Assembly: GCF_022810765.1 (NCBI RefSeq)
Contig: NZ_CP094494.1
Span: 3,038,001 to 3,102,000, forward strand
Direction: 5' to 3'
Source: Winogradskyella sp. MH6
GTDB lineage: Bacteria > Bacteroidota > Bacteroidia > Flavobacteriales > Flavobacteriaceae
DNA length: 64,000 nucleotides
Shown: in pieces, positions 30,737 through 39,234 of the stretch
Layout of the letters: every line of letters begins with the position of its first letter
Position numbering within the stretch: position 1 is the stretch's first letter
Notes under the pieces: generated by a model
Told to the model about the DNA's origin: nothing
Seen by the model: only the letters and a program-made list of their open reading frames with translations
Databases searched by the model: none
Position numbers and translations under genes: made by a program

Positions 30737-31339
30737 TTAATTTTCATTACGGTTATGAAGAATAGAAACCACATCTTCCAACTTAAACCCTTTTGCCTGC
30801 AACAACATTAAATAGTGAAATAATAAATCGGCACTTTCATTTAAAAATAAGTCGTCGTTATTGTCCTTAGCTTCAATAATGACTTCCACAGCTTCTTCAC
30901 CAACTTTTTGAGCCACTTTATTAATACCCTTGGCAAATAATGAAGCTACATAAGATTTTTCTGTGTTACCAGCTTCTACCCTACTTTGTATCGTGTTTTC
31001 CAGTTTGGTTAAAAACCCGTAAGATTCGGTATTAGCTTCATTCCAACACGTATCACTTCCTTTGTGACACGTTGGCCCTTTTGGATTTACAGTTACTAAC
31101 AAAGTATCATTATCGCAATCTAATTTAATATCTACTAAGTTTAAAACATTACCGCTTTCTTCACCTTTAGTCCAAAGTCGGTTTTTGGTACGACTGAAAA
31201 AGGTTAACAACTTAGTGTCTTGCGTTTTTTTAAGCGCTTCTTCGTTCATATAACCAAGCATCAACACATTTTTGGTTGTTGCGTCTTGAACGATTGCTGG
31301 GACTAATCCGTCGTTATTTTTATTAAAATTTATGTTCAT
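30737..31339 (-). CDS. hisIE: Bifunctional phosphoribosyl-AMP cyclohydrolase / phosphoribosyl-ATP pyrophosphatase
   Basis: Steps 2 and 3 of histidine synthesis. The HisI part (about 1-105) shows the zinc/metal ligands in DIKLDCDNDTLLV and GPTCHKGSDTCW; the HisE part (about 110-200) has KVGEEAVEVIIEAK and ESADLLFHYLMLL. The ATG at 31339 begins MNINFNKNNDGLVPAIVQDA; an upstream in-frame ATG at 31360 lies within a dispersed repeat and is not preferred. Last gene of the his operon; no clear terminator was found behind it. Confidence 0.93.
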   Translation of the reverse strand: MNINFNKNNDGLVPAIVQDATTKNVLMLGYMNEEALKKTQDTKLLTFFSRTKNRLWTKGEESGNVLNLVDIKLDCDNDTLLVTVNPKGPTCHKGSDTCWNEANTESYGFLTKLENTIQSRVEAGNTEKSYVASLFAKGINKVAQKVGEEAVEVIIEAKDNNDDLFLNESADLLFHYLMLLQAKGFKLEDVVSILHNRNEN

Positions 31340-31355
31340 TTTTCTTAGCTTTTCT

Positions 31356-31425
31356 GTCATTTCGAGTGAGCACAGCGACGAGAAATCTCAAAATTTAAAG
31401 ATACTTCGCTTTGCTCTGAATGACA
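31356..31425. repeat. Palindromic dispersed repeats between hisIE and hisF
   Basis: Two modules: TCATTTCGAGTGAGCACAGC followed by GACGAGAAATCTC, and ATACTTCGCTTTGCTCTGAA followed by TGACA. The same second module occurs between hisC and hisD. Confidence 0.7.
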
Positions 31426-31427
31426 AT

Positions 31428-32183
31428 TTATAATCTAACAGAAACACCTTTCTGTTTTAATTCTTCTTTTAAATCTTTTATTTCTATTTCACCAAAATGA
31501 AATACACTTGCAGCCAAAGCGGCATCTGCTTTTCCCTCTTTAAAGGTATCTGTAAAATGCTGAATAGTTCCTGCGCCACCAGACGCGATGATTGGGATAT
31601 TTACAGTGTCTGATAGTTTAGCCAAAGCATCATTTGCAAATCCATTTTTTGTTCCATCGTTATTCATAGAGGTAAACAGAATTTCACCTGCGCCTCTTGT
31701 TTCAACTTCTTTTGCCCAATCGAATAGATCTATTTCGGTTGGAATACTTCCACCAGCTAAATGCACTTTCCATTGTCCTTTAACTTGTTTGGCATCTATA
31801 GCAACCACAACACATTGACTGCCAAACTTACTTGACAATTCGTTTATCAATTCTGGTCGTTTTACAGCAGATGAATTTACAGATATTTTATCTGCTCCAG
31901 ATTTTAAAAGTACATCTACATCTTCAACACTTGAAATTCCGCCACCAACGGTAAATGGAATATTGACTTGTTCGGCGACTTTTAACACCATTTCAATCAT
32001 TGTTTTTCTACCTTCTAAAGTTGCAGAAATATCTAAAAACACCAATTCGTCTGCGCCTTTTTCAGCATACTGTTTTGCTAATTCTACAGGATCGCCTGCA
32101 TCTCTTAAATTAACAAAATTAACGCCTTTAACAGTGCGACCGTTTTTAATATCTAGACAAGGTATGATTCGTTTTGTAAGCAT
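31428..32183 (-). CDS. hisF: Imidazole glycerol phosphate synthase subunit HisF
   Basis: A 251-residue TIM barrel that, with HisH, converts PRFAR and ammonia to imidazole glycerol phosphate and AICAR. Catalytic aspartates are in [12 protein letters not shown] (D11) and [12 protein letters not shown]. Phosphate loops FTVGGGISS and IIASGGAGT are intact. Length as in E. coli (258). Seventh gene of the operon. Confidence 0.96.
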
Positions 32184-32191
32184 AGTTTTAC

Positions 32192-32258
32192 TTCCTACGA
32201 AAGCAGGAATCTCATTTTTAGTTTCAAAATAGATTCCGCATCAAGTGCGGAATGACAG
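32192..32258. repeat. Palindromic dispersed repeats between hisF and hisA
   Basis: CCTACGAAAGCAGGAATCTC and, 17 bases on, GATTCCGCATCAAGTGCGGA followed by ATGACAG. The latter is a palindrome TTCCGCA-TCAAG-TGCGGAA. Confidence 0.7.
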
Positions 32259-32260
32259 TT

Positions 32261-32995
32261 TTATAAAAAGCGTTCTAATTCTTTTAAACTTATTCTGTTT
32301 TCGTAAATGGCTTTACCAATTATTACTCCATCGCAACCTATGTCTGCTAAAACTTCAACATCTTCAATAGTTGTTACTCCGCCAGAAGCAATTAGTTTTA
32401 CAGATTGATCTGCGCTACCATTGGTACATTGGTTAATAATTTTTTTATACAGATCTACCGATGGACCTTGAAGCATGCCGTCTTTTGAAATATCTGTACA
32501 TACCACATATTGAATACCGTTTTTTTGATAGTCTTGTATAAATGGGACAACGTCTAAACTACTTTCTTCTAACCAACCAGAAATGGCGATTTTTTCGTTT
32601 TTACAATCGGCTCCAAGGATAATTTTTTGCGTTCCGTATTTATTAATCCATCTTAAAAAAGTGTCTGTATTTTTTACAGCTATACTACCTCCTGTAATTT
32701 GTTTAGCTCCAGAATTAAAAGCTATAAATACATCGTCATCCGATTTAAGTCCGCCACCAAAATCGATTTTTAAATTGGTTTTTGTCGCTACCTTTTCTAA
32801 CACTTTATAATTGACTACGTGATCTGCTTTAGCGCCTTCTAAATCTACCATATGCAAGTATTCTATGCCTGCATCTTCAAATTGCTTGGCAACTTCTAAC
32901 GGATTTTCATTATACATTTTTGTTGTGCTGTAATCGCCTTTAGTTAATCTTACGCACTTTCCTTCTATTATGTCTATTGCTGGTATTATTCTCAA
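32261..32995 (-). CDS. hisA: Phosphoribosylformimino-AICAR isomerase HisA
   Basis: A 244-residue TIM-barrel isomerase (ProFAR to PRFAR). The two catalytic aspartates are in [16 protein letters not shown] and [14 protein letters not shown]. Phosphate-binding motifs [12 protein letters not shown] and IASGGVTT are intact; a weak internal duplication with HisF is expected in the family. It lies only 15 nt downstream of hisH, the one his gap without a repeat. Confidence 0.96.
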
Positions 32996-33010
32996 AATAG
33001 TTGTTTGTTT

Positions 33011-33604
33011 CTAGTTGTTAGTATTTAGTTCTAAAAAATTCTTAAGAATTTTTTCTCCTTCTTTTCCACTTTTTTCTGGGTGAAATTGTACTCCGTAAAA
33101 ATTATCTTTTTGTAATGCTGAAGCGTATTCAACATCATAAGTTGTTGTTGCAATTGCTTCTTGGCATTTTTCTGCATAAAAACTATGCACTAAATACATA
33201 AATTCATTTGCTTTAATATGTTTAAACAAATCTGATTTAAGATTACTTATCGTATTCCAACCCATTTGTGGCACTTTTACTGTATTTGAAAAGCGTTTTA
33301 CATCTACATTAAAAATACCTAAGCCATTTGTATGTCCTTCTTCTGTAGACTTACACATTAATTGCATACCTAAACAAATCCCTAAAACAGGTTGTTTTAA
33401 CTGCGGAATCAAACGATCCAAACCTGATTCTTTTAGCTTTTTCATTGCACTACTCGCCTCGCCTACACCAGGAAAAATCACTCTGTCTGCTGCTTTAATT
33501 TCTTCAGGATTATTAGTTAACAACGCTTCAAAACCTAAGCGTTTAAAAGCAAATTGAATGCTTTTGATGTTTCCTGCACCATAATTTATGATGACTATTT
33601 TCAT
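33011..33604 (-). CDS. hisH: Imidazole glycerol phosphate synthase glutaminase subunit HisH
   Basis: A 197-residue class I glutamine amidotransferase feeding ammonia to HisF. The nucleophile Cys is in VLGICLGMQLM; the His-Glu of the triad is in YGVQFHPEKSG. The opening IINYGAGNIKSIQFAFKRLG is typical. Full length. Confidence 0.96.
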   Translation of the reverse strand: MKIVIINYGAGNIKSIQFAFKRLGFEALLTNNPEEIKAADRVIFPGVGEASSAMKKLKESGLDRLIPQLKQPVLGICLGMQLMCKSTEEGHTNGLGIFNVDVKRFSNTVKVPQMGWNTISNLKSDLFKHIKANEFMYLVHSFYAEKCQEAIATTTYDVEYASALQKDNFYGVQFHPEKSGKEGEKILKNFLELNTNN

Positions 33605-33684
33605 TTATTGTCATTCCTGCGAAGGCAGGAATCTTATTAATTATTGTTCATTTTTTTAGATTCCGTATCAAGTACGGAATGAAA
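33604..33684. repeat. Palindromic dispersed repeats between hisH and hisB
   Basis: GTCATTCCTGCGAAGGCAGG followed by AATCTT, then GATTCCGTATCAAGTACGGA followed by ATGAAAAG. The second is the palindrome TTCCGTA-TCAAG-TACGGAA, a compensated variant of the copy in the hisF-hisA gap. Confidence 0.75.
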
Positions 33685-33688
33685 AGTA

Positions 33689-34822
33689 CTATAACATTCC
33701 TTTTGTACTTGGTAAAATCATTTTTTCAACATCGCGTTTTACTGCCATTTTTATTGCTTTAGCAAATGCTTTAAAAATTGCTTCAATTTTGTGATGCTCG
33801 TTTGTACCTTCTGCTTTGATGTTTAGGTTGCATTTTGCACCATCTGTAAAGGATTTAAAGAAGTGAAAAAACATTTCGGTTGGCATTTTGCCAATCATTT
33901 CGCGTTTAAAATCGGCTTCCCAAACCAACCAATTTCTACCACCAAAATCTATTGCAGCTTGCGCAAAACAATCGTCCATTGGTAAGCTAAAACCGTAACG
34001 TTCTATACCTAACTTATTACCTAAAGTCGTTGCAAATACTTCACCTAAAGCAATAGCTGTATCTTCGATAGTGTGATGCTCATCTACTTCTAAATCACCA
34101 TCGACTTTAATATTTAAATCTAATTGTCCGTGACGCGCAATTTGGTCTAACATATGGTCGAAAAACGCAATACCTGTATTGATATTACTTTGTCCTGTTC
34201 CGTCAAGATTTAAATCGATCTTAATTTTTGTTTCGTTGGTATTTCGTTCGATGCTTCCAGTACGTTCTTTGGCTTTTAAGAATTTGTAAATCTCTTCCCA
34301 ATCATTACTTTCTAAAGCGATAAACTGGTCTAAAGAATCTCGTTTTACCGTAATTTCATCCGTTCCTAAATTGGTATTGTCATTAATAAAAATGCCTTTA
34401 GAACCAAGGTTTTTAGCTAATTCAACATCGGTTAATCGGTCACCAATAACAAACGAATTTTCTAAATCGTAATCCTCACCAAAATACTTGGTTAACAGAC
34501 CTGTATTTGGCTTTCGTGTTGGCGCATTGTCTTTTGCGAAAGTTCTGTCTATAAATTGTTCTTCAAAAATAACACCTTCATTTTCAAAAGATTGAAGCAC
34601 AAAATTATGTACTGGCCAAAACGTGTTTTCTGGATACAGATCTGTTCCCAATCCATCTTGATTGGTAATCATTACAATTTCAAAATCTAATTCTTTGGCG
34701 ATTTTACTTAAATACGTGAAGACCTTTGGGTAAAATACCAACTTCTCAAAACTATCGATTTGCTCATCTGCTGGTTCTTTAATCAATGTGCCATCACGGT
34801 CTATGAATAGTACTTTTTTCAT
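33689..34822 (-). CDS. hisB: Bifunctional histidinol-phosphatase / imidazoleglycerol-phosphate dehydratase
   Basis: A 377-residue fusion, as in enterobacteria. Residues 1-165 are a HAD phosphatase ([15 protein letters not shown]8 and D10; later [12 protein letters not shown] and [12 protein letters not shown]). Residues 180-377 are the IGP dehydratase with two metal sites marked by [28 protein letters not shown], and [19 protein letters not shown]. Both active sites look complete. Confidence 0.95.
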
Positions 34823-34841
34823 TTTTTTCTATGTTTTCGTC

Positions 34842-34880
34842 AGTTCGAGTGAATTTCTTATGAATATCACTTAATGTGAC
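34842..34880. repeat. Repeat remnant between hisB and hisC
   Basis: GTCAGTTCGAGTGAATTTCT and CACTTAATGTGACG, a degraded form of the TTCGAGTG...GTGACG module. Confidence 0.5.
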
Positions 34881-34882
34881 GT

Positions 34883-35932
34883 TTATATATTATTTAATAC
34901 TGCAATCAATTTCTCATTCTCATCACTTGTACCAACCGTAAAACGTAAACAGTTTTCACAAAGTGGCTGATTGGTTCGGTTGCGAACAACGATGCATTTT
35001 TCTACTAACTGATTGTATCGATTAGTCGCATCATCTACCTTAATTAACACAAAATTGGCTTGTGTTGGATATATAGTATCAATCCAAGTCAGCGACTTTA
35101 AGGCTTTAATTAACAAGCTTCTTTCTGAAATTATGTTTTGAATTTCGTTTTGAACCTCTTGTTGCTTTTCTAAACGTTGGATTGCCTTTTGCTGCGTTAA
35201 TTGATTGACATTATATGGTGGTTTTATTTTGTTTAAAATTGAAATAATTTCGGTTGAAGCGTAGCAAATTCCTAGTCTAATTCCTGCCATTCCGTAAGCT
35301 TTAGATAGCGTTTGCGTGACTATTAAATTTGGGAAATCTGATAATTTTGATATCCAACTTTCATCTTCTGAAAAATCGATATATGCTTCATCAATTACTA
35401 CAATTCCATTGAAATTAGTCAATAATTTTTCAATTTTAGACGCTTCAAAACTATTCGCTGTTGGATTGTTTGGCGAACATAAAAATAACAGTTTTGTATT
35501 GTTGTTTTGAGTGTTTAGAATATCGTTTACTTTTGGTTGAAAATCAGCATTCAATTCAACCGTTAAAACGTCTATAGCATTTGTATTTGCTAATACCTCA
35601 TACATACCGTAAGTTGGTGGTAATGTGATAACATTATCTTGGTTTGGCTCGCAAAAGGCTCTAAAAATTAAGTCTAATACTTCATCACTTCCGTTTCCTA
35701 ACAGGATATTTTCGGTTGGAATGTTTTTAATTTTTGATAACACCGATTTTACATCTTTTTGTTTTGGATCCGGATAACGATTTACACCATTTTCAAACGG
35801 ATTTTCGTTTGCATCTAAGAAAATCATTTGGCTTGAAGTTGCGTCTTTAAACTCATCTCTCGCAGAAGAATACGGTTTTAAGGCTGCGATGTTTGGTCTG
35901 ACTAAGTTATTTATGTTGAAAGTTTGTTTCAT
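34883..35932 (-). CDS. hisC: Histidinol-phosphate aminotransferase
   Basis: A 349-residue fold-type I PLP enzyme using glutamate to aminate imidazole-acetol phosphate. The Schiff-base lysine is in TQTLSKAYGMAGIRLG; LCSPNNPTANSF and VIDEAYIDFSED are the cofactor-binding segments. FLDANENPFENGVNRYPDP is the usual start. Full length. Confidence 0.95.
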   Translation of the reverse strand: MKQTFNINNLVRPNIAALKPYSSARDEFKDATSSQMIFLDANENPFENGVNRYPDPKQKDVKSVLSKIKNIPTENILLGNGSDEVLDLIFRAFCEPNQDNVITLPPTYGMYEVLANTNAIDVLTVELNADFQPKVNDILNTQNNNTKLLFLCSPNNPTANSFEASKIEKLLTNFNGIVVIDEAYIDFSEDESWISKLSDFPNLIVTQTLSKAYGMAGIRLGICYASTEIISILNKIKPPYNVNQLTQQKAIQRLEKQQEVQNEIQNIISERSLLIKALKSLTWIDTIYPTQANFVLIKVDDATNRYNQLVEKCIVVRNRTNQPLCENCLRFTVGTSDENEKLIAVLNNI

Positions 35933-35940
35933 ATTATAGT

Positions 35941-35966
35941 CTTTAGATTCTTCGCTTTGCTCTGAA
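35941..35966. repeat. Dispersed repeat between hisC and hisD
   Basis: GATTCTTCGCTTTGCTCTGA followed by ATGACA; near-identical to the module at 31401-31425. Confidence 0.65.
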
Positions 35967-35971
35967 TGACA

Positions 35972-37258
35972 TTAGTTCGTTAAGTCTTTTAATCTAATCG
36001 AAACTGCGTTTTTGTGCGCTTGTAATCCTTCAGCTTTCGCCATTAGTTCTATGGTGTTTCCTATGTTTTTTAAACCTTCTTTTGTGATATTTTGAAACGT
36101 AATCGCTTTTGTAAAACTATCTAAATTCACACCAGAATATGCTTTGCTAAATCCATTGGTTGGTAAGGTGTGATTGGTTCCAGACGCATAATCGCCAGCA
36201 CTTTCTGGTGTATAATTACCAATAAATACAGAACCTGCATTTTGAATTCCATCAATATAAAAATCATTTCTTTTAGTCGCTACAATAAAGTGTTCTGGAC
36301 CATAATCATTAATTAAATCTAATGCTTCTTTATCAGATTTTACTAAAATAGATTTTGAATTATTGATAGCTTGTTGCGCAATGTCTTGTCTTGGTAATAA
36401 TTTAATTTGCATGTTAATTTCAGTTTCAACTTCATTCATAAAGTTTTCAGATGTAGAGACTAAAATCACTTGACTATCAGTTCCGTGTTCTGCTTGACTT
36501 AATAAATCTGAAGCCACATAACTTGCATTGGCACTATCATCTGCCACAACCAACAATTCGCTTGGTCCTGCAGGCATATCGATAGCAACACCATATTTAG
36601 TAGCTAATTGCTTTGCGACAGTTACAAATTGGTTTCCTGGACCAAAGATTTTATAGACTTGCGGAATAGTTTCGGTCCCAAACGTTAATCCTGCAATAGC
36701 TTGAATACCACCAACTTTTATAATTTTAGTCACACCGCAAAGTTGAACTGCGTATAAAATTTCGTTAGCAATTTTACCGTCTTTATTTGGCGGCGAACAT
36801 AACACAACTTCTTTACAACCTGCGATATTTGCTGGAATTGCTAGCATTAAAACTGTTGAAAATAAAGGCGCTGTACCAGCAGGAATATAAATCCCAACTT
36901 TTTGTATGGCACGTTTTTCTTGCCAACAGGTAATACCAACAGACGTTTCTACACTTACCTTTTCTGTTTTTTGTGCTTTGTGGAATGTTTCTATGTTTGA
37001 TTTTGCTTGGTTAATTGCAGCTTTTAGTTCTGATGATAATTTTGAAGTAGCCTCTTCTATTTCTTGCGCAGTTACAAGATTAGATTGTAAATCTGCACCA
37101 TCAAATAACTTGGTGTATTTTGAAATTGCAGCATCACCATTGCGTTGTACATCTTCAAAAATTTGGTTGACTGTACTTTCTATATCGTTTACGGTTTGTG
37201 TTGGTCGTTTTAAAAGTTCTGACCATGTGTTTTTATTTGGGTATTTTATTGTTTTCAT
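35972..37258 (-). CDS. hisD: Histidinol dehydrogenase
   Basis: A 428-residue zinc enzyme performing the last two oxidations to histidine with NAD. Family segments: VGIYIPAGTAPLFSTVLM, VAIDMPAGPSELLVVADDSA, DLLSQAEHGTDSQVIL (with the zinc-site Gln-His) and YGPEHFIVAT (catalytic Glu-His). ASGTNHTLPTNGFSKAYSG is also complete. Length normal. Confidence 0.96.
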   Translation of the reverse strand: MKTIKYPNKNTWSELLKRPTQTVNDIESTVNQIFEDVQRNGDAAISKYTKLFDGADLQSNLVTAQEIEEATSKLSSELKAAINQAKSNIETFHKAQKTEKVSVETSVGITCWQEKRAIQKVGIYIPAGTAPLFSTVLMLAIPANIAGCKEVVLCSPPNKDGKIANEILYAVQLCGVTKIIKVGGIQAIAGLTFGTETIPQVYKIFGPGNQFVTVAKQLATKYGVAIDMPAGPSELLVVADDSANASYVASDLLSQAEHGTDSQVILVSTSENFMNEVETEINMQIKLLPRQDIAQQAINNSKSILVKSDKEALDLINDYGPEHFIVATKRNDFYIDGIQNAGSVFIGNYTPESAGDYASGTNHTLPTNGFSKAYSGVNLDSFTKAITFQNITKEGLKNIGNTIELMAKAEGLQAHKNAVSIRLKDLTN

Positions 37259-37307: not shown

Positions 37308-38165
37308 TTATAAAACCATATTTTCAATTGGACAAACTAATATGCCTTCTGCTCCATTTGCTTTTAATTCATCTATAATTTCCCAGAAATCATTTTTATT
37401 GATTACGGAATGTAATGAACTCCAACCTTCTTCAGCTAATGGTAAAACGGTTGGACTTTTCATTCCTGGTAAAATATTTATAATGTCATCAACCTTGTTA
37501 TTTGGCGCGTTAAGTAAGACGTAACGTGAGTTTCTTGCTTTTAAAACCGATTGCAATCTAAACTGTAACTTGTTTAAAATTGCTTGGTTTTCAGTGGAAA
37601 TTTGAGGTGACACTGCAAGTACAGCTTCCGATTTTAAAATGACTTCAACTTCTTTAAGGTTATTTTTAAATAAGGTGCTTCCGCTAGATACAATATCAAC
37701 AATTGCATCTGCTAAACCAATGTTTGGCGCAATTTCTACAGAACCATTAATGATGTGCAAATTCGCATCGATATTGTTGTTTTTTAAGAATTGGTTGACT
37801 GTGTTTGGATACGATGTCGCGATACGTTTTCCTTCTAAATCTTTAATGGAATTGTAGTTTTTTCCTTTTGGAATTGCTACAGACACTTTACAGCTAGAAA
37901 ACCCTAATTTTTCTACAATAGAAATGTCTTGTCCTTTTTCTACCAAAACATTTTCACCAATAATGGCTAAGTCTACAACACCATCTTTTAAATACTGAGG
38001 AATGTCTCCGTTACGTAAATAAAAGACTTCTAATGGGAAGTTTTTAGCTGAAGCTTTGAGTTGATCTTTGCCATTATCAATAGCAATACCAACGTCTTTA
38101 AGGATTTTCATCGAATCCTCGTTTAATCGTCCAGATTTTTGAATTGCAATTTTTAGTTTACTCAT
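37308..38165 (-). CDS. hisG: ATP phosphoribosyltransferase (long form)
   Basis: A 285-residue HisG with its own C-terminal regulatory ACT-like domain, so no HisZ is needed. It condenses ATP and PRPP, the committed step, and is normally feedback-inhibited by histidine. KLKIAIQKSGRLNEDSMKIL opens it; DAIVDIVSSGSTLFKNNL is the PRPP-binding motif. First structural gene, 50 nt behind the leader terminator. Confidence 0.96.
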   Translation of the reverse strand: MSKLKIAIQKSGRLNEDSMKILKDVGIAIDNGKDQLKASAKNFPLEVFYLRNGDIPQYLKDGVVDLAIIGENVLVEKGQDISIVEKLGFSSCKVSVAIPKGKNYNSIKDLEGKRIATSYPNTVNQFLKNNNIDANLHIINGSVEIAPNIGLADAIVDIVSSGSTLFKNNLKEVEVILKSEAVLAVSPQISTENQAILNKLQFRLQSVLKARNSRYVLLNAPNNKVDDIINILPGMKSPTVLPLAEEGWSSLHSVINKNDFWEIIDELKANGAEGILVCPIENMVL

Positions 38166-38216: not shown

Positions 38217-38252
38217 ATAAAAAAACCGTTTGATTTACTCAAACGGTTTTAA
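38217..38252 (-). terminator. his leader terminator (attenuator)
   Basis: On the minus strand AAAACCGTTTGA, GTAAA, TCAAACGGTTTT, then T-rich sequence. Perfect stem of about 12 bp located about 30 nt after the leader peptide stop and 50 nt before hisG: the termination half of an attenuator. Confidence 0.85.
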
Positions 38253-38263
38253 AAATATCTTGG

Positions 38264-38332
38264 TTTTATTCAATACATTTTCAGCTCGCTTGAGTGCAAG
38301 TATGAAAATGATGATGATGTAATTGAATAAAA
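38264..38332 (-). promoter_or_regulatory. Stem enclosing the His codons of the leader
   Basis: The leader mRNA reads TTTTATTCAATTACAT (38332-38317) and later ATGTATTGAATAAAA (38278-38264). They are complementary over 15 bp with one bulged base and enclose the His codons. A ribosome stalled on these codons would disrupt it. Confidence 0.6.
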
Positions 38333-38337
38333 GTCAT
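38281..38337 (-). CDS. hisL: his operon leader peptide
   Basis: An 18-codon frame, MTFIQLHHHHFHTCTQAS, with five His (four in a row, one after a Phe), between the SPFH gene and hisG. It is followed by a terminator and the full his operon, which is the classic arrangement for ribosome-mediated attenuation: scarce charged tRNA-His stalls the ribosome at the CAT codons and prevents termination. It is too short for routine gene finding. The mechanism is by analogy with enterobacterial hisL; the sequence is unrelated apart from the His run. Confidence 0.88.
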   Translation of the reverse strand: MTFIQLHHHHFHTCTQAS

Positions 38338-38362
38338 GTCTTGTTTTTGTTCTTTACAAAGA

Positions 38363-38382
38363 TTGTAAATTAAAATTTACAA
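38363..38382. promoter_or_regulatory. Perfect palindrome upstream of the his leader
   Basis: TTGTAAATTAAAATTTACAA: 9-bp arms with a 2-nt centre. On the minus strand it is followed by AATCTTTG, a near match to the -7 element, so the palindrome lies in the expected promoter spacer and could be an operator. Confidence 0.4.
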
Positions 38383-38418: not shown

Positions 38419-39234
38419 TTATTGATTTCCTAAAATTATAGGCATTCCACTTTCACCAGAACCAATAATAACTACCTTACTATTAGGTGATTCTGCTAAT
38501 TTATTTGTTGCTTCAATACCTTTATCCTGTAGAATTTTATCAGTTAACGATGCGCTTAAAATTTTATTAGCTTCAGCTTTACCTTCTGCTTCAATAATTT
38601 GACGTTCTGCTTCCTTCTCAGCAGTAACCAGTCTAAATTCGTATTCTAAAGATTCTTGCTCCTGCTTTAATTTACGCTCAATAGCATCCTTAATTGTTGG
38701 TGGTAATGTCACATCACGCACTAAAATTTCATCTAAAACAATGTATTGATCATCAACAATTTTTTTGGTCTCTTCAAAGATTTCACGTTGAATAGCATCT
38801 CTTTTACTAGAATATAATTGTTCTGGCGTATAACGACCCACGACACTACGTGCAGCTGATCTTATAGTTGGCAAGATAATACGTTGTAAATAGTTATCAC
38901 CTATCTCTTGGTGCAACTTTCCTAAATTCTTAACATCTGGTTTATACCAAGCAGAAGCGTCTAATTGAATATCTAATCCATTAGATGATAAAACCTTCAT
39001 TTTTTCAAAAATTTCTTGTCTACGCACTTCGTAAACGTATACTTTGTTCCATGGTGCCACTATATGAAATCCTTCACCTAAAGGAGGCTCGTCAGTAACT
39101 ACACCTCCGCCAAAAGTTTTATATAAAACACCTGCTTCTCCAGAACCTATCGTTACAGCAGATTTAGCTACAATTATTATTAGTAACACAACTCCTATCA
39201 TGATCGGCAAACCGATTTTTGGTAATTTTTCCAT
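38419..39234 (-). CDS. SPFH/prohibitin-family membrane protein
   Basis: A 271-residue band-7 protein. One N-terminal membrane helix (about 8-28), then the SPFH domain starting GSGEAGVLYKTFGGGV, and a Glu/Ala-rich coiled coil (about 180-240; EQESLEYEFRLVTAEKEAER). It presumably oligomerises into a membrane ring that scaffolds proteases or channels, as HflK/HflC and prohibitins do. It lies 10 nt behind the VWA-like gene. Confidence 0.85.
   Translation of the reverse strand: MEKLPKIGLPIMIGVVLLIIIVAKSAVTIGSGEAGVLYKTFGGGVVTDEPPLGEGFHIVAPWNKVYVYEVRRQEIFEKMKVLSSNGLDIQLDASAWYKPDVKNLGKLHQEIGDNYLQRIILPTIRSAARSVVGRYTPEQLYSSKRDAIQREIFEETKKIVDDQYIVLDEILVRDVTLPPTIKDAIERKLKQEQESLEYEFRLVTAEKEAERQIIEAEGKAEANKILSASLTDKILQDKGIEATNKLAESPNSKVVIIGSGESGMPIILGNQ

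Follow-up and report, generated by a model that had tools for sequence, protein, structure and literature searches.

A predicted ribosome-mediated attenuator ahead of the histidine biosynthesis operon in Winogradskyella and its relatives among the Bacteroidia

The his operon and its leader frame

The window, that is, the entire 64,000-nucleotide stretch of the Winogradskyella sp. MH6 genome analyzed here, carries on its minus strand a complete hisGDCBHAFIE operon, whose eight genes run in one direction downstream of a short leader. The operon begins with hisG (37308..38165; NCBIfam TIGR00070), the first gene under the predicted control, and continues with hisD, hisC, a two-domain hisB, hisH, hisA, hisF and hisIE (30737..37258). 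For every one of these genes at least one NCBIfam model is matched above its cut-off, in agreement with the preliminary description, made from the sequence alone, which had placed a complete his operon after a terminator. The host genome consists of one 3.5-Mb contig, and the closest HisG among the best 80 of 535 confirmed relatives is that of Mesoflavibacter zeaxanthinifaciens (96%). Upstream of the leader lies a prohibitin-like (SPFH) gene on the same strand (38419-39234); the name is our own reading, and the matches to HflC/HflK given by NCBIfam all fall below cut-off.

The leader frame MTFIQLHHHHFHTCTQAS (38281..38337, minus strand) comprises 18 codons, with its ATG at 38337-38335 and its TGA stop at 38283-38281, the stop and the hisG start at 38165 being 115 nt apart. 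It specifies the 18-residue peptide with HHHHFH that had been claimed beforehand with coordinates on the plus strand, while all elements of the attenuator lie on the minus strand. Histidine occupies codons 7-10 and 12, and the run of four CAU codons (His7-His10; 38308..38319, minus strand) is the predicted stall site. In an alignment of the window with the best 80 of 535 confirmed relatives, the rows of which were not picked for structure, the leader is 15, 17 or 18 codons long in all 81 sequences, and the gaps within the frame measure 0, 3 or 6 nt (43, 37 and 1 sequences, respectively). The choice of His codon in these leaders is distinctive: the loci of the best 80 relatives (L003-L082) use CAT 336 times versus 17 times for CAC, as against 100 CAT and 111 CAC in the hisG genes of the same loci. 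The preference for CAT also extends to 86 further leaders (CAT 322 versus CAC 87). Pairing of CAU with AUG in the RNA, or a slower reading of CAU, could explain this bias.

A putative -7 promoter box AATCTTTG (38357..38364, minus strand) differs by one mismatch from TAnnTTTG, the -7 element reported at -12 to -5 for F. psychrophilum in passages of PMC9723704. Among the 81 loci the box matches perfectly in 6, with a single mismatch in 74 and with two in the remaining one, and it ends 13-19 nt ahead of the leader ATG in 75; because 741 of 1620 mononucleotide shuffles reach one mismatch or fewer as well, its position weighs more than the match itself. Transcription would, by this placement, start near 38352, with an untranslated lead of about 15 nt in the window. 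Within 20 nt of the leader start, a tetramer resembling a Shine-Dalgarno site occurs in two of the 81 loci and is absent from the other 79; hence, translation of the frame would rest on initiation without such a site. This is in line with the abstract of PMC9976891, according to which the ribosomes of Bacteroidia do not recognise Shine-Dalgarno sequences.

Competing RNA structures and the position of the ribosome

The leader RNA (minus strand throughout) can adopt three structures. The first is a protector stem, recognized from folding and marked by two-sided changes, between a 5' arm UUUUAUUCAAU in codons 2-6 (38322..38332) and a 3' arm AUUGAAUAAAA directly past the stop codon (38264..38274). 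An inner protector hairpin, CUUGC-ACUCAA-GCGAG in codons 13-18 (38285..38300), hides the 5' strand of the second structure, the antiterminator. The latter joins CUCAAGCG in codons 15-17 (38287..38294) to CGUUUGAG (38238..38245), which makes up most of the 5' arm of the terminator, and includes an inner helix with UGAAAAUGU and UUG on its 5' side (38271..38283) and CAA and AUAUUUUUA on its 3' side (38250..38262). The third is an intrinsic terminator, AAAACCGUUUGA-GUAAA-UCAAACGGUUUU followed by a U tract (38219..38250), with a hairpin of -14.2 kcal/mol.

The whole leader region folds at -35.5 kcal/mol (z -5.51), a value that none of 200 shuffles equals. When the full leaders of all 81 sequences are folded, the best fold contains the terminator in 80 and the protector stem in 70, whereas folding from codon 13 to the terminator loop, with the RNA through codon 12 hidden, gives the antiterminator as the best fold in 81 of 81. 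Thus, the strong terminator past the frame and the additional stem between the bases before the His codons and those after the stop, both proposed in the preliminary description, are recovered here. Its view that the position of the ribosome decides the RNA structure also finds support in the folds, but it named no antiterminator, which left the mechanism incomplete; the pairing of codons 15-17 with the terminator 5' arm was identified in the present analysis and has comparative support. The antiterminator of the window reaches -15.7 kcal/mol, and over the 81 sequences the mean energies are matched (-16.1 kcal/mol for the antiterminator side versus -15.8 for the terminator), an evenness that, as modeled, is what a switch needs. 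Judged by these folds, the three mutually exclusive and conserved structures constitute a classical ribosome-mediated his attenuator, leader-peptide attenuation by the ribosome being a textbook type of switch.

We regard it as very probable that the element is a ribosome-mediated transcription attenuator of the his operon, which senses charged tRNA-His. We infer a promoter, translation of the frame, stalling and a response to histidine, in that RNA polymerase would start just 5' of the short frame with a ribosome close behind. With ample histidine the ribosome would reach the stop codon and cover codons 15-17, leaving the 5' arm of the terminator free; the terminator would then form and transcription would stop ahead of hisG. 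With histidine in short supply, the ribosome would stall at the CAU run and block the 5' arms of the protector structures, exposing codons 15-17, which could pair with the emerging terminator 5' arm, the inner helix forming between them; no terminator would arise and the operon would be read. If the frame were not translated, the protector stem would form and the terminator would win.

The dependence on the ribosome was modeled by folding a transcript that ends in the terminator loop, in which the A-site codon, all RNA before it and the 12 nt after it are hidden, an assumed footprint. In the window, the antiterminator then forms with a probability of 1.00 for an A site anywhere in the His run (codons 7-10); the value drops to 0.75 at Phe11 and 0.35 at His12 and is 0.00 for codon 13 and all later codons through the stop, as against 0.18 without a ribosome. 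The corresponding means over the 81 sequences are 0.85 at the His codons (0.96 at the first of them), 0.00 at the stop codon, a value that follows from the assumed footprint, and 0.41 without a ribosome. The three-state pattern appears by a margin of 0.3 in 50 of the 81 sequences and is absent from 31, because in these the antiterminator does well at equilibrium without a ribosome, its probability then lying within 0.3 of, or above, the value with a stalled one. Hence, the folds do not predict for every sequence that an untranslated leader is firmly off; in those 31 the off state would be rescued only by the order of folding, with the protector forming first.

The behavior of these 31 sequences would also fit an RNA that senses histidine or tRNA directly, be it a riboswitch, a T-box-like element or a protein-bound terminator, with the peptide as a bystander. 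The strong and conserved alternative folds, and a histidine response that is here a prediction, count for such an RNA too. Against it, Rfam gives no match at gathering scores, the T-box included; a stretch of at least three His in six residues persists between families while the rest of the peptide varies; and the structural logic of the window tracks the position of the ribosome. We accordingly give direct sensing very little chance and retain attenuation by the translating ribosome as the preferred reading.

To assess the pairings of this attenuator, the 81-row alignment was extended to 119 rows with 18 genus loci (taken of the 29 same-genus loci besides that of the window, apparent repeats of organisms being dropped), 10 family loci (4 of the same genus) and 10 loci from other families. 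As the last ten were chosen for a similar-looking antiterminator or peptide, the counts over 119 rows lean towards structure. In the 81 unselected rows, each of the six pairs at the center of the antiterminator is present in 80 or 81 sequences, and the flanking ones are present in 77, 66 and 51. In the 119 rows, the terminator has 98.9% of its cells paired (40 two-sided cells), the antiterminator core 96.7% (14), the composite antiterminator 90.4% (44) and the protector 82.6% (86); sliding the partners by 1-3 columns leaves only 17-51% paired. For each structure the percentage paired and the covariation score lie above all 500 shuffles, a result that kinship alone can give. Further pair types do not rise above the shuffles, 343 of 500 reaching the value of the antiterminator core and 263 of 500 that of the protector, nor do pairs with two-sided change (260 of 500 for the terminator and 198 of 500 for the protector). 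Because most antiterminator columns hardly vary, its covariation rests on few pairs, namely one inner pair (AU 93, GU 16 and GC 9 of 119) and a loose end pair. The first pair of the inner protector hairpin is CG in 57 rows, UG in 18, UA in 31, AU in 6 and unpaired in 7; two of its other pairs are unpaired in 27 and one in 45. Compared with mononucleotide shuffles, an antiterminator duplex as good as the real one arises in 49 of 8100.

The two arms of the terminator are conserved unequally. Eight columns of the 5' arm never vary across the 81 sequences, whereas four of the eight bases opposite them on the 3' side do, chiefly through wobble (e.g., A 31, G 48, T 2). A single helix does not account for this asymmetry, but a second partner of the 5' strand, the antiterminator, does; the argument appears to depend less than the shuffle comparisons on statistics sensitive to kinship. 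The distance from the leader ATG to the terminator core is likewise constrained, at 86-94 nt in all 81 sequences. In other families the antiterminator strand changes along with the terminator arm: UCAGGCG occurs with CGUCUGA, already within the genus (L145, L147), UCAGGUG with CGCCUGA, GGCGAGCC with GGCUUGCC, and CAGGUAG with CUACCUG. In a broader set of 86 leaders, an automated finder gave a testable terminator in 67, and in only 33 of these does the antiterminator rank with the top 5% of shuffles; the other 19 comprise 17 in which none was found and 2 in which it lay too near the His codons, and at least two of the misses (L174, L132) visibly have a terminator.

The C-terminal Gln-Ala-X of the leader peptide, present in 77 of 81 sequences, might be taken as the mark of a His-rich peptide that is functional itself, e.g., in metal binding, with the hairpins being ordinary ones. 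However, what looks like a conserved Gln-Ala peptide end is, at the RNA level, the strand of the antiterminator. In Formosa maritima (L007) codon 16 is TAA, so that the peptide ends at residue 15 and drops its last residues, yet the RNA pairing is kept as U-G; this is a single genome, in which a sequencing error is possible. Peptides from other families have a different C-terminus, which matches the changed terminator arm wherever an antiterminator was identified. A functional peptide is thus highly improbable.

Phyletic range and descent of the element

Absence of the short frame from relatives had been named beforehand as the finding that would speak against the attenuator; such a frame stands before hisG in 80 of 80 loci, drawn as the best 80 of 535 confirmed relatives and thus biased to near relatives. 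It is present in all 110 loci when these 80 are taken together with 30 of the genus, that of the window included, some of them being the same organisms. Four-codon runs of CAY are common, occurring at 87 places in the host genome, but short His frames are rare: an ATG frame of 8-40 codons with at least three His in six residues is found in 27 of 3283 control 400-nt tiles taken off the leader in the 80 loci, and with at least four in none, as against 80 of 80 and 72 of 80 leader regions, respectively, in these best 80 of 535. A chance run of CAY codons was discarded as an explanation on this basis.

Among 102 further regions upstream of hisG (10 from the family, of which 4 belong to the same genus, 11 from the order and 81 from the class), 86 have an ATG His frame, compared with 21 of 2040 dinucleotide shuffles, and 16 are without one. 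Only 89 of the 197 sampled genomes of the class yielded a HisG, so that statements on range cover genomes with hisG. Forty regions were selected from the phylum-level matches, 37 of them from outside the class; among these 37, 16 have at least three His in six residues with an ATG, GTG or TTG start, by direct count. The positives are all eight regions of families f84 and f102, four of four in f91, two of three in f89, one of three in f97 and the one of f92. The 18 regions of the other twelve families, including those with a HisG only about 30% identical, have no His frame.

These loci also bear on the upstream gene. A same-strand prohibitin-like gene lies at most 1.5 kb upstream in 70 of the 80 relatives' loci (best 80 of 535) and at most 163 nt away in 58 of those 70, an arrangement that would suit a constitutive terminator of the prohibitin-like transcript beside which the His frame is incidental, as the frequency of CAY runs in the genome might allow. 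Against this, the ten loci of the 80 without the prohibitin-like gene, two of which have a gene in the opposite direction there, still possess the element, and the frame, the antiterminator and the spacing are conserved; moreover, many other families also have His leaders before hisG. We therefore set aside a plain terminator of the upstream gene as highly improbable.

We built a covariance model, R1, from the 81 sequences; it scores the window element at 154.7 bits. Of 149 family genomes, R1 matches 138 at E <= 0.001 and, with the cut-off tightened to E < 1e-6, still 129; part of these genomes had also contributed sequences to the model. In the 11 genomes with a known hisG position (G000, G011, G120, G183, G209, G336, G340, G350, G361, G365 and G410), the best match lies directly before hisG. 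Ten secondary matches in other genomes (41-47 bits) proved, once opened, to be ordinary terminators, one of them behind a tRNA, and palindromic terminators give matches of up to 36 bits on the wrong strand. Of 67 loci scored (65 his regions, from family to phylum, and the trp and phe leaders described below), 26 exceed 40 bits, of which 21 also exceed 47 bits; the trp and phe leaders are not among the 26. Outside the class, R1 matches L269 (82.5 bits) and L249 (48.5 bits). The scores suggest common descent over repeated invention, with low scores in many class members leaving doubt.

Two variant situations surfaced in this survey. One genome (G530) has two copies of the his leader with an equal score of 144.3 bits (C81:9264-9399 and C126:23068-23203), reflecting either duplication or assembly redundancy. 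In five loci of families f17, f30 and f62 (L177, L181, L184, L187, L188), the His leader frame ends in HHSS and an inverted repeat lies around or just past the stop; an obvious U-tract terminator was not seen in the sequence before their hisG, and these leaders possibly exercise a different mode of control.

Known leaders and biological implications

The Rfam His_leader family (RF00514) has no match in the window and is not one of the 21 hits obtained along the leader at E <= 10, all of which are sub-threshold and belong to other families. At gathering scores no family, the T-box included, matches the window, and in 20 his loci from order, class and phylum only three tRNAs were matched. A T-box or another Rfam element was rejected as a candidate, since no Rfam leader family matches the window, the leader or these 20 wider loci. 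That routine annotation would overlook the leader, as had been supposed from the sequence, fits this absence of an Rfam match.

We take the peptide and RNA sequences of the flavobacterial leader to differ from those of enterobacterial hisL. Both combine a short frame containing consecutive His codons with a terminator before hisG and an alternative antiterminator, and the logic is equal, judging by the passages of PMC9413887 that treat hisL. They differ in that the 5' strand of the flavobacterial antiterminator lies inside the frame, and in that the flavobacterial leaders lack a Shine-Dalgarno site in 79 of 81 and have a putative promoter box of the Bacteroidota type. The His leaders predicted in Firmicutes, as described in passages of the same paper, similarly have three to five consecutive His codons, a terminator and an antiterminator; compared by description, they belong to another phylum and to few lineages. 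Closest to the present element is one that passages of PMC9723704 place upstream of hisG in Flavobacterium psychrophilum, a structured 5' element described there as conserved in other genera; the same passages mention strong indications of leader-peptide attenuation ahead of operons for amino acids. The hisG element likewise belongs to the Flavobacteriaceae and lacks an Rfam match, and, as far as these passages go, it is very likely the same element; relative to them, the peptide, the structure, the antiterminator and the range beyond the family come from the present analysis.

Bacteroid-trp (RF01692) comes from the same phylum and is of the same peptide-leader type but has Trp codons and precedes the trp operon; the his leader has no match to it in the window at gathering score, nor does it figure among the sub-threshold matches over the leader. 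The host genome has a Trp leader of its own, MKTITNHTWWWNFANSCS, with a terminator-like hairpin and U tract before a trpE-like gene (L216:747-865), which matches RF01692 at 65.1 bits (cut-off 49). It further has a Phe/Tyr-rich leader, MIHISKTYYNWFYFFFNKRNEA, about 130 nt before position 1489 of L220, with a terminator-like hairpin and U tract, which precedes a prephenate dehydratase gene; this leader has no Rfam match at E <= 0.1 and fits the pheA element named in passages of PMC9723704. Both downstream genes pass Pfam cut-offs, and their best NCBIfam matches fall below the curated cut-offs, so that trpE and pheA are probable names. The 450 nt preceding an ATG internal to the thrA gene showed no leader, and PF00920, searched for ilvD, has no match in the host genome. 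We count the Trp and Phe leaders, with their like design, for the attenuator reading of the his element.

A histidine leader peptide in Bacteroidota is not described in the passages of the literature searched; the 2010 comparative study by Lopatovskaya and colleagues, which is cited in passages of PMC4833913, may hold one. The his leader is an addition to a known switch type and is not claimed here as a first description. The consulted main text of a 2021 survey of his genes in the superphylum does not contain the word "leader", and it states that his regulation is very little studied in prokaryotes besides the enterobacteria (PMC8305728). For Proteobacteria and Firmicutes, a 2022 paper on his regulation lists T-boxes, HisR and attenuators; no word starting with "bacteroid" occurs in its main text (PMC9413887). 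What stands out in the present element is its breadth and the absence of Shine-Dalgarno sites: a switch hardly described in the group is present in most of the sampled relatives with hisG. It supplies a precise model, with peptide, stall codons, protector, antiterminator and terminator, for the control of histidine synthesis in a major phylum. We hold in even balance the broader proposal that one inherited his RNA switch before hisG predates the split between the Bacteroidia and their sister classes and, together with the Trp and Phe leaders, makes ribosome-mediated attenuation the standing mode of control of amino-acid operons in a lineage with ribosomes that ignore Shine-Dalgarno sequences. 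Since an attenuator of this kind needs the ribosome near RNA polymerase, the leaders are natural reporters of coupling in Bacteroidia. If the proposal is true, it would mean tight coupling of transcription and translation across much of the Bacteroidota.
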